The notes under the pieces were generated by a model, which made no database searches, was not told the origin of the DNA, and saw only the letters and a program-made list of their open reading frames with translations. From NCBI RefSeq assembly GCF_900637655.1, contig NZ_LR134384.1, forward strand, positions 1,178,001 to 1,242,000: a stretch of DNA of 64,000 bases, written 5' to 3'. The stretch is from Segatella oris. Lineage in GTDB: Bacteria > Bacteroidota > Bacteroidia > Bacteroidales > Bacteroidaceae. Positions 60,924 through 64,000 of this stretch are shown here, piece after piece. Position 1 is the first letter of the stretch. Every line of letters begins with the position of its first letter. Made by a program: the position numbers and the translations under genes.

Positions 60924-61690
60924 ACAAAAGGCTATTTTTCTTTGGTGTTCTCATTTGTCCGTCTTTCGCCTTTGATATCTTGCTGATGCTTCACGGCTTA
61001 TGTTTGGAATTCCCGTCAGAGGTCTTCCCTGTTTGATGTCATTGCGGGTGGTTGTGTCTCCCGCTACTCCTTGGTTTTTAATCAGTTGCAGATTACATTG
61101 TAACTTGATGCAGATTGCGTTGTAACTTGATGCAGATTATCACGCAATCTGACGCAGATGACACGATAACTTGATGCAGATGACACGCTGTTTTGACGCA
61201 GGTTGCAATGCCCCTGCAGGTCAGTGGTGCTGGCAGTCCTTTTACTCTTATCGATTGTCGTGTGCCGTTTTCTGGATATGGGTAATCTTGTTATCGGCGA
61301 ACTCCCTCCTTCAGGGGTATGATCTCAAAGTGTGTTTTTCATCAATGGACGATTGCAAGGCTATACCCCACTCTGTCCGCTTCCAATCATTATAGTCCTG
61401 TCTTTTCAGTTTGATAGCACAGAAGCTGTCTGTTCAGAAAGTACGTCTGTACATAACTATATTAAAGGATGATACGGTGAAAGAAGAAAATGTACTTTAG
61501 TTAATAAGAGGAAATTCCTGCTACTACTTAAAAACTACATATTACTTCTTTTTATAATCTTTCAATAAAAGCATACTATTTGTTATTATATTCGTATCTT
61601 TGTAAGGTGATTTTTAAAGTAGCGTAATGTGTCTGCATGTTTCTTCTTAAAGTTACTAAAGGTTAAAATAGAGAAAACCAATAAAAATAA
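60924..61690. other. Divergent intergenic region, nupG operon to sigma/barrel gene
   Basis: About 770 bases with no gene. It holds repeat array E (61074-61205) and then an AT-rich stretch leading to the 14-bp box at 61691. Confidence 0.5.
61074..61205 (+). repeat. 22-bp-period degenerate tandem repeat, array E
   Basis: Six consecutive 22-bp units begin at 61074, 61096, 61118, 61140, 61162 and 61184. Units at 61096 and 61118 share 17 bases around GTAACTTGATGCAGATT. This is the cleanest array and gives the family core GTAAYTTGAYGCAGATTRC. Confidence 0.85.
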
Positions 61691-61734
61691 GTGCAGTCTT
61701 TTAGAGTAAACAGACTCCTTTTAATAAAAAGGAG
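61691..61734 (+). promoter_or_regulatory. Candidate alternative-sigma promoter box and leader hairpin of the sigma/barrel gene
   Basis: GTGCAGTCTTTTAG (61691-61704) is repeated exactly 59 bases before the radical SAM start (63488-63501). Nine bases on, both copies have ACTC, and then AATAAAA. CTCCTTTT/AAAAGGAG at 61715-61734 forms a perfect 8-bp hairpin. No TANNTTTG at a normal position. Confidence 0.5.
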
Positions 61735-61756: not shown

Positions 61757-63451
61757 ATGATACAGATTGACGCTTGTAAAAATGGGGATAAGGAAGCCCT
61801 GGGAGAACTCTATACGACATACGCTAATAGACTTTTAGGCGTATGTCGGCATTATGTAAAAGATGATAATTCGGCTCACGATATTTTGCATGATGCATTT
61901 ATTATAATCTTCATGTCTATCCAAGATTTGAAAGATGAATCAAAATTGGAAGGTTGGATGATAACAATCGTAAGAAATCTATCCTTAAAATATCTCCAAA
62001 ACACAGAAAAAGAAGCCATACCCTTATCTTGCTTGAATATAGAAATTCAGGAAGCAGCATGTGAGGAACAGAAAAAGATAGAGTTGGAGCTATTGTTGTC
62101 AGCGATAGAGTCCTTACCAGAAGGGAATCGTGAAGTTTTCAAGCTCTCAGTCTTGGAAGGTCTTTCCCACAAGGAGATAGGAGAACAGCTCGGCATCAAT
62201 CCGCACAGTTCTTCTTCCCAGTTGTTCAGGGCAAAGAAAACATTGCGTGCAATGTTGATTAACTATTGGATGCTCTTCTTGCTTCCAATTCTTATACCAG
62301 TTTATATATATATCGCTACGAGAGATAAAACTGTTGAGACTTCCGATAACGAACCTACTGCTACAAACACTCATAAGAATCAATCAAAATATGTTCAAAA
62401 AGGATTAGGAACTCTGAAGAAAGAAGAGTCAAGATATTCTACCTCGCCAAGTACCGCCAATAATGCAGGAAGAGGTTCTGCCAGTGAGATTGTCCCTGAA
62501 GGAAATATTGCTTGGCAAGTATCAACAGACAGTGCTATAACGGAACAACGAGCATTACCTTTTAATGTGGATTCCCTGCAAAAACATTTGGCTATAGGTA
62601 TCGGAACAAACGATTCTTTATACTGCATTCCACAGATACCACAAGATAAGATGATAGCATCGAATGAAAGAATGAACTTCAACGTCTGCAATAAGAAGAA
62701 ATATCCGTGGACATTCAATTTGGGTTATTCATCCAATGCAGGTGCAAATAGAGCCGTGTCGAATTTGGATTATCTGTCACTTGTAGATTACGCCAACGGT
62801 GGTGCGACAGCCAAACTTTACACTTGGGCTGATTTAGAGGATTATTATGCCCGGAATAATGCTTTGATGGATTCTGTCGAGAGAGCGAGAATGTCCTTGA
62901 TACTGCGTGAACATCCAACAGATGACAACGGTTCATTGGGAGAGGTCGCACATCATTGTCGCCCTAAGACCTTTGGTCTTTCCATTAATAAGCAATTAAG
63001 TCCAAAATGGACTTTCGGGACAGGCATAACTTACACCAGACTAAAATCTGAATTTGAAAGTGAGTATAACAAGGCAAGACTGGTGAAAACCCAGAAAATA
63101 GATTATGTTGGCATACCATTGAAACTGACCTATCAAGTATGGTCAAAAGGACGGTTCAATGCATATATGACAGGTGGTATGGCATTTGAAATGCCTGTCC
63201 ACAGTTCGCTTGAAAAGAAGTACATCATAACAGCCGACTCGTCGTACACGTTGAAGAGGGACATCAAGCCACGTTATCAGTGGTCTGTAAACTTAGGTGT
63301 CGGTGTGCAGTACAAGCTATTTAAGCCTTTCAGTCTATATCTGGAACCAAACATGTTCTACTATTTCAGAAATAGCAGTAACCTTGAGACTTACCGCACA
63401 GAGCATCCGTTCATCATAACGGTACCATTCGGATTGCGGCTTACTTGGTAA
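61757..63451 (+). CDS. ECF-type sigma factor fused to a transmembrane helix and an outer-membrane beta-barrel
   Basis: 564 residues in one frame. Residues 1-85 are sigma region 2 (LGELYTTYANRLLGVC, SAHDILHDAFIIIF, KLEGWMITIVRNLSLKYL) and 105-166 region 4 (LPEGNREVFKLSVLEGLSHKEIGEQLGI). At once follows one membrane helix (about 171-187, WMLFLLPILIPVYIYIA), a polar Ser/Thr/Asn-rich linker (about 190-315) and a C-terminal beta-barrel (about 316-564: WTFNLGYSSNAGA, WTFGTGITYTRLKSEF, WSVNLGVGVQYKLF) ending in Trp. The architecture recalls dual-membrane-spanning anti-sigma factors of Bacteroides, but here the cytoplasmic head is the sigma factor itself, with no anti-sigma segment visible. Activity would need release or a conformational signal across the envelope. 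A sequencing error joining two genes cannot be excluded. Confidence 0.8.
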   Translation: MIQIDACKNGDKEALGELYTTYANRLLGVCRHYVKDDNSAHDILHDAFIIIFMSIQDLKDESKLEGWMITIVRNLSLKYLQNTEKEAIPLSCLNIEIQEAACEEQKKIELELLLSAIESLPEGNREVFKLSVLEGLSHKEIGEQLGINPHSSSSQLFRAKKTLRAMLINYWMLFLLPILIPVYIYIATRDKTVETSDNEPTATNTHKNQSKYVQKGLGTLKKEESRYSTSPSTANNAGRGSASEIVPEGNIAWQVSTDSAITEQRALPFNVDSLQKHLAIGIGTNDSLYCIPQIPQDKMIASNERMNFNVCNKKKYPWTFNLGYSSNAGANRAVSNLDYLSLVDYANGGATAKLYTWADLEDYYARNNALMDSVERARMSLILREHPTDDNGSLGEVAHHCRPKTFGLSINKQLSPKWTFGTGITYTRLKSEFESEYNKARLVKTQKIDYVGIPLKLTYQVWSKGRFNAYMTGGMAFEMPVHSSLEKKYIITADSSYTLKRDIKPRYQWSVNLGVGVQYKLFKPFSLYLEPNMFYYFRNSSNLETYRTEHPFIITVPFGLRLTW

Positions 63452-63546
63452 ATGGAGATAATGAGTAAATAAAAAGTCATGAATACAGTGCAGTCTTTTA
63501 GTAGTTTTCTACTCTTAACAATAAAAGACAAAACTCAAAAGAAAGA
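63452..63546 (+). promoter_or_regulatory. Leader with GTGCAGTCTTTTAG box before the radical SAM gene
   Basis: The 14-bp box lies at 63488-63501. It is followed by AGTAG/CTACT (63500-63513), a short hairpin, and AATAAAA. The layout matches the 61691 region. Confidence 0.5.
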
Positions 63547-64000
63547 ATGTACAGTATTTATGACTACATCCACAATGGAATTGTATTTGTCAATAATGTA
63601 GTACGCAGACAGCACAAGGAACTCACATCCCTGATGATATATTCCACAACAAACTGTCAGTCTCGTTGCAAGCACTGTTCCATTTGGAAGAAACCTATAG
63701 AAAATCTCAGCTTAGATGACATCATCAAAATAATGAACAGCAAATGTGTAACAAAACGCACGATGGTCGGCTTGGAAGGGGGTGAGTTTATCCTCCATCC
63801 CGAAGCAGACAAGATATTAGGATGGTTTGATACTAACCACCCTAACTATACATTGCTGTCCAATTGCCTTGCAGTAGACAAGGTAATTTCTTCCGTAAAG
63901 AATCATCATCCCAAACATCTATACATATCACTTGACGGCAATAGAGAAACCTATCGCTATATGCGTGGGAGAGATGGATATGACAAGGTGATTAAGGTTA
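63547..64000 (+). CDS. Radical SAM protein, 3'-truncated by the window edge
   Basis: 151 residues are visible from the ATG at 63547. The cluster motif is NCQSRCKHCSIW (C-x3-C-x2-C), which binds the 4Fe-4S cluster that cleaves S-adenosylmethionine. GLEGGEFILHPE is the GGE motif region and LYISLDGNRETYRYMRG the next core strand. This is the MoaA/SPASM type of core, used for peptide or cofactor modification and many other reactions. The C-terminal part that would tell is missing. It shares a 14-bp upstream box with the sigma/barrel gene and starts 96 bases after it. Confidence 0.85.
   Translation, partial: MYSIYDYIHNGIVFVNNVVRRQHKELTSLMIYSTTNCQSRCKHCSIWKKPIENLSLDDIIKIMNSKCVTKRTMVGLEGGEFILHPEADKILGWFDTNHPNYTLLSNCLAVDKVISSVKNHHPKHLYISLDGNRETYRYMRGRDGYDKVIKV

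Follow-up and report, generated by a model that had tools for sequence, protein, structure and literature searches.

A Dma3-type gene joining an ECF sigma factor, a membrane helix and a predicted outer-membrane barrel, with its candidate promoter and regulon

We found that one gene in the window (the whole stretch of 64,000 nucleotides from Segatella oris analysed here) codes for a single chain in which ECF sigma regions 2 and 4 are followed by a transmembrane helix, then by a polar linker and finally by a predicted outer-membrane barrel. The fusion is confirmed and is no artefact. The initial annotation, which had the sigma factor replace the anti-sigma head, described the layout correctly, but the layout is not new: the architecture is already in print as Dma3, in the parts of PMC13088901 that deal with that protein. 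We propose that the protein is a Dma3-type envelope sensor made of one chain: the membrane tether would inhibit the sigma factor until proteolysis, triggered by a signal at the barrel, releases it. We give this reading, drawn from sequence, a probability of about 0.6. The candidate promoter and regulon and the missing anti-sigma head are described here for the window fusion, and may have been published earlier.

Parts of the fusion protein and the missing anti-sigma head

The 564-codon frame starts with ATG and is free of stops (Table 1). All three Pfam matches of its product (Sigma70_r2, Sigma70_r4_2 and OMP_b-brl_2) scored above the cut-off, as did TIGR02937 in the sigma part, whose solved relatives include SigE, SigW and RpoE. 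By its regions 2 and 4, this part is an ECF sigma factor. Region 4 terminates in the segment SSSSQLFRAKKTLR, which is strongly conserved across 43 fusions and which we take to be the helix that reads the -35 element. A hydropathy peak was present at the helix position in 28/28 fusions checked. The linker that follows comprises about 130 residues in the window protein, mostly polar, and its sequence is poorly conserved across the 43 fusions.

The C-terminal domain is predicted to be an outer-membrane barrel from its Pfam match (OMP_b-brl_2, PF13568; residues 405-529, E 4.6e-9), from its homology to the barrels of unfused Dma-like proteins and from its strand pattern, with 9 amphipathic strand-like segments seen against 4.2 expected and a count as high in 4 of 500 shuffles. 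The chain ends in FGLRLTW, with Trp as the final residue. Searching the PDB with a profile built from 27 barrel sequences brought up no solved relative of this domain at E up to 5. No periplasmic anti-sigma domain was seen after the helix, where the chain consists of linker and barrel domain. The initial annotation had thus read most of the chain correctly from the letters: the stop-free frame and the Pfam matches bear out one 564-codon frame with sigma regions 2 and 4, the hydrophobic helix does lie directly behind the sigma part at about residues 171-187, and of the polar stretch and the barrel ending in Trp, the former is seen and the latter is predicted.

Table 1. Features of the fusion locus, in window positions
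Feature	Position	Strand	Basis
Sigma-helix-linker-barrel fusion gene, 564 aa, Dma3-type layout	61757..63451	+	open frame, Pfam domains, relatives
ECF sigma region 2, residues 18-82	61808..62002	+	Pfam PF04542 Sigma70_r2, E 2.3e-10
ECF sigma region 4, residues 111-163	62087..62245	+	Pfam PF08281 Sigma70_r4_2, E 2e-15
Transmembrane helix, about residues 171-187, with Pro177 and Pro181	62267..62317	+	hydropathy
Polar, sequence-variable linker, about residues 191-317	62327..62707	+	94-129 residues in 43 fusions
Predicted C-terminal outer-membrane barrel domain, residues 318-564	62708..63448	+	PF13568 OMP_b-brl_2, strand pattern
P1, TGCAGTCTTT-N12-ACTC, 40-65 bp before the fusion gene	61692..61717	+	perfect match
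P2, 38-63 bp after the fusion gene, ahead of the radical SAM gene	63489..63514	+	perfect match
Radical SAM/SPASM protein, runs past the window end (355 aa in L015)	63547..64000	+	synteny

The distance between sigma factor and membrane is short and nearly constant. From Lys160 to Trp171 there are 12 residues in 41/43 fusions and 13 in the other two, so that no room for an anti-sigma head between region 4 and the helix is left in any of the 43 aligned fusions. The earlier statement that no separate anti-sigma segment is visible there, made for the window protein, therefore holds across the 43. In 24 unfused Dma-like proteins (the split L169 left out, the three near-copies L165, L167 and L168 included), 44-70 residues precede the helix.

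The helix itself often carries proline. Of the 43 fusions, 32 have a proline at the position equivalent to Pro181 and 37 have one somewhere in segment 170-190, with none in the remaining six; by a different measure, a 19-residue hydropathy window, 2/24 unfused helices contain one. Helix-breaking residues favour site-2 proteases, and the frequent proline is thus compatible with intramembrane cleavage.

Integrity of the frame and breadth of the family

Among the best 120 of 1057 protein matches, the relatives are 563 or 564 aa long and 96-100% identical to the window protein; some that are 97% identical carry the label Prevotella intermedia. A search of one genome per species (84,980 species) gave 26 related loci, with an uninterrupted frame in 23 and, for loci with the whole frame, identities of 56-92%. 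The named relatives belong mostly to Prevotellaceae. Alignment A1, made of the window protein and 23 relatives (57-92% identity) without the interrupted L032 and L036 and the partial L039, is gap-free at the sigma-helix junction. The frame of L039 is cut by a contig end. In L032 an in-frame TGA replaces Trp171; in L036 the frame shifts by one base behind codon 182, and the promoter spacer, too, is one base short. Both breaks thus affect the helix or its junction with the sigma part. The two loci may be genes in decay or sequencing errors, or may encode sigma factors that are naturally free of the tether.

These two interruptions would also be expected if an assembly error, a frameshift or an internal start concealed two separate proteins, as would L169, which has its halves in two overlapping frames, and L145, the one of 40 fetched divergent regions without a whole frame. 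Against this stand the stop-free frame in 23/26 orthologous loci and the single stop-free frame in 39/40 divergent regions, which had been preselected for both halves in one frame. Moreover, the internal Met166 and Met172, possible starts of a separate barrel protein, are not conserved among relatives. We therefore regard two separate proteins as barely conceivable: conservation of the whole frame across relatives rules out an artefact or a split gene. The frameshift or assembly error between about 62240 and 62300 that, by the initial annotation, would have overturned its reading is thereby rejected. Its suggestion to look for homologues of the same order in other Bacteroidales was productive as well, with fusions recovered from, among others, four genomes in three further families (see below).

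Selection acts on most of the chain. Where dN/dS was computable between the window gene and close relatives, it stayed at 0.07-0.17 in the sigma part, 0.04-0.17 in the helix and 0.05-0.22 in the barrel but came to 0.27-0.98 in the linker, with many dS values saturated. By these ratios, sigma part, helix and barrel are under purifying selection, which is weaker on the linker. Comparison with L017 of P. multiformis pointed to a mosaic gene, with a dS of 0.09 for the sigma part, 0.05 for the linker and 1.03 for the barrel. A much older barrel beside a sigma part and linker that barely differ at silent sites suggests that barrel alleles are exchanged by recombination among Prevotellaceae.

Divergent relatives (25-36% identity) keep the same domain order, and both halves were covered in 28/28 fusions of the first checked set. 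Fusions were counted from extracted frames without a stop. Open-frame length as proof of fusion was rejected, since in L171, L193 and L218 the length runs through stops between separate genes. Among 301 genomes of the same family, 89 gave matches at E up to 1e-30, unfused relatives included, and at least 52 have stop-free fusion frames: the window's, the 28 of that first set, 22 extracted subsequently and one more. Of 393 genomes across the order, 10 had a match with E up to 1e-80, and 7 of these yielded stop-free fusions; four of the 7 belong to the three further families. In 80 genomes of one other genus, 3 matched with E up to 1e-70, and in two of these the match spanned the whole model. 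Across the phylum (395 genomes, three candidates scored per genome), whole-model matches were found in 2 genomes among the matches listed, both of the window's genus, and unfused sigma-Dma pairs were also extracted from class-mates and other families.

Alignment A2 leaves out L137, L145, L146, L153, L157 and L162 (uncertain start, no frame, or near-copies). In a sigma-domain tree of 47 fusions, 24 unfused proteins and one split relative, a single branch divides fused from unfused with an SH-aLRT of 100, and the barrel tree gives the same split with 98; both trees were computed by a quick method without bootstraps. A single origin of the fusions is the simplest reading of these trees.

Promoter-like motifs and the candidate regulon

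The motifs P1 and P2, which flank the gene, are the only two perfect matches to TGCAGTCTTT-N12-[AG]CTC in the one-contig genome of 3.17 Mb. With up to two mismatches, this genome holds 70 matches against 33 for the reversed pattern. TGCAGTCTTT was found in 25/25 orthologous upstream regions, with the same 12-base spacer in 24. Across 18 relatives, 32 of 34 perfect matches lie at the fusion gene or its operon (17 before the gene, 14 after it and one ahead of a radical SAM operon that sits on a different contig), and the remaining two lie elsewhere, without an ORF of 90 aa starting nearby. Allowing one mismatch raised the count in these relatives to 70, against 24 for the reversed pattern.

The core of the motif extends to distant relatives. 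Among 39 divergent loci, 31 carry TGCAGTC in the 160 bp upstream of the gene and 31 in the 160 bp downstream of it, against a background of 33 in 1837 other sequence windows of these loci. It is missing before the gene in 8 loci, after it in 8, and on both sides in four (L127, L137, L161 and L162). None of 24 unfused sigma genes has it upstream. The motif is built of TGCAGTC as a -35-like element, about 15 nt, and then a -10-like element that varies by clade (ACTC or GCTC; GGAC; TATC), while the -35-like element is constant; this spacing resembles that of classical ECF promoters. In some loci, for example L136 and L158, the -10 types are mixed. Over 49 loci carrying both motifs, the -10-like elements on the two sides of the gene nevertheless agreed at a mean of 6.12 of 8 positions, compared with 4.72 when shuffled (0/1000 as high). 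Spacer agreement, by which relatedness was controlled in this comparison and in no other way, was 1.92 against a shuffled 2.16. Agreement of the -10 within a locus is expected if each locus's sigma factor reads both promoters. The motif evidence thus supports the view that a two-element promoter would be recognized by the sigma part, which would in this way drive its own gene and one operon. Another copy of TGCAGTC is present 160-1500 bp downstream of the gene in 11/39 divergent loci; the two-promoter picture therefore holds for the window's clade, and other clades may have more promoters.

Other signals were sought at the locus. An Rfam search gave no match there, and a sigma-70 promoter scan performed no better than on shuffles. 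An inverted repeat, CTCCTTTT-AATA-AAAAGGAG, at 61715-61734 overlaps the -10-like element of P1, and parts of it recur in relatives. Upstream of P1, at about 61597-61604, lies TATCTTTG, which we take to resemble the Bacteroidetes housekeeping -7 element and which may give basal expression of the fusion gene.

Behind P2, the radical SAM gene is followed, beyond the window, by a Gfo/Idh/MocA oxidoreductase gene and then a lipoprotein gene. In the 26 close loci, the radical SAM/SPASM gene was found in 23, the Gfo/Idh oxidoreductase in 22 and a related lipoprotein in 20, with contig ends explaining some of the gaps. Two lipoprotein-like genes follow in H. loescheii, behind a motif with one mismatch. 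Among the 39 divergent loci, the oxidoreductase occurs in 20 and the radical SAM gene alone in one more, a count in which the choice of ORFs may hide some radical SAM genes; a class I methyltransferase stands there instead in 12. The lipoprotein that closes the target operon (L015:5734-6264) had no family above the cut-off. Lipoproteins recur among the predicted targets and might serve the barrel as ligands or as partners in feedback, and the candidate regulon looks like one of envelope modification. The draft genome of Prevotella illustrans places the operon on a separate contig, where it retains its motif. That the sigma factor acts strictly locally had been considered, as both perfect sites flank the gene; this is weakened by P. 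illustrans, where an operon away from the gene keeps the motif, so that action confined to the gene's surroundings need not be assumed.

Proposed mechanism, alternatives and comparison with known systems

According to our proposal, the tether, which leaves no more than about 12 residues between the end of region 4 and the membrane, would keep the sigma factor inactive. At the membrane face, region 4 should be blocked from joining polymerase at a promoter, and an inhibitor domain would then not be needed. A change sensed by the barrel would expose the chain to a periplasmic protease that shortens the linker, an RseP-type intramembrane protease would then cut the helix, and the freed sigma factor would switch on the operon and its own gene. 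The window genome encodes one RseP homologue and three Prc homologues above the cut-off, which, together with the often proline-bearing helix, fit the regulated proteolysis that the initial annotation had suggested alongside tension. More broadly, the fusions could form a class of one-component trans-envelope switches of Bacteroidales in which the tether alone inhibits and which have a promoter code of their own in each clade (a shared -35 and a clade-specific -10), acting on their own gene and an envelope-modifying operon; we would put this generalization slightly short of even odds.

A sigma factor that works while anchored would account for two features of the family, the fixed distance between region 4 and helix and a linker length held at 94-129 residues despite sequence drift. 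Here a pull or conformational change passed along the linker would free the sigma factor at the membrane, without cleavage. We consider this unlikely, because so few residues separate the end of region 4 from the membrane that promoter binding should be blocked, because the P. illustrans target operon is not beside the fusion gene, and because the experimentally worked one-chain sigma sensor named in the relevant part of PMC8999054 uses proteolysis. Alternatively, an anti-sigma factor might act in trans, for example the head of either unfused Dma-like protein of the same cell. The window genome does have two unfused sigma-Dma pairs, and in B. thetaiotaomicron the dma3 locus is described as upregulated on deletion of dma1 or dma2 (PMC13088901, parts on Dma3). 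However, TGCAGTC is absent before 24/24 unfused sigma genes and the fused and unfused sigma domains form two groups, so that the two kinds of system look separate and inhibition in trans appears improbable.

The fusions without the motif leave a place for another regulator that reads it, with the sigma part inactive or in a different role. This is highly improbable, given that the motif tracks the fusion family (31/39 before the gene, 31/39 after it, 0/24 in unfused systems), that the -10 elements tend to match within loci and that the sigma part is under purifying selection. Release of a tethered sigma factor by proteolysis thus remains the reading we prefer. With a promoter motif and a small predicted regulon in hand, the Dma3-type layout becomes a testable switch, and if the tether alone inhibits, it would be a simpler design for an envelope sensor than a sigma/anti-sigma pair.

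Sigma factors with membrane-spanning regulatory parts are known from other bacteria. IutY of Pseudomonas putida is described as a sigma/anti-sigma chain in which Prc and then RseP free the sigma domain (PMC5411451 and PMC8999054, parts on IutY). Like the fusion, it unites a sigma factor and a membrane-spanning regulatory part in one chain; it differs in that it includes an anti-sigma domain in the periplasm and has its outer-membrane receptor as a separate protein, whereas the fusion has its predicted barrel in the chain and no anti-sigma domain was seen in it. ECF48, ECF52 and ECF53 of Actinobacteria likewise carry a C-terminal transmembrane extension on the sigma factor but, as described in the part of PMC8999054 on these groups, have a zinc-finger anti-sigma portion and no outer-membrane barrel.

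The closest systems are those of the Dma proteins. In the window genome, the sigma and barrel domains of the unfused pairs are homologous to those of the fusion. These pairs, L013 and L014, have overlapping frames, a head before the helix and no TGCAGTC in the 200 bp upstream. Like the unfused Dma systems as presented in the parts of PMC13088901 that describe them, the fusion has a transmembrane helix, a tether and a predicted C-terminal barrel domain; unlike it, they have a separate sigma gene and an anti-sigma head, and TGCAGTC is absent before the 24 unfused sigma genes compared here. The Das sigma factors are assigned to ECF21 in the same source. Literature searches for a sigma-barrel fusion found no paper titled on one; the statement on Dma3 sits inside PMC13088901, whose parts on Dma3 give no promoter or regulon for it. 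They do report that in B. thetaiotaomicron the hypervesiculation of dma1 or dma2 mutants persists after deletion of dma3. In Dma3 of this species (bt_2778-2779), the sigma factor is described there as the N-terminal domain of the same chain, and by this published description the window fusion is likened to Dma3: its sigma factor, too, is the N-terminal domain and not the product of an adjacent gene.
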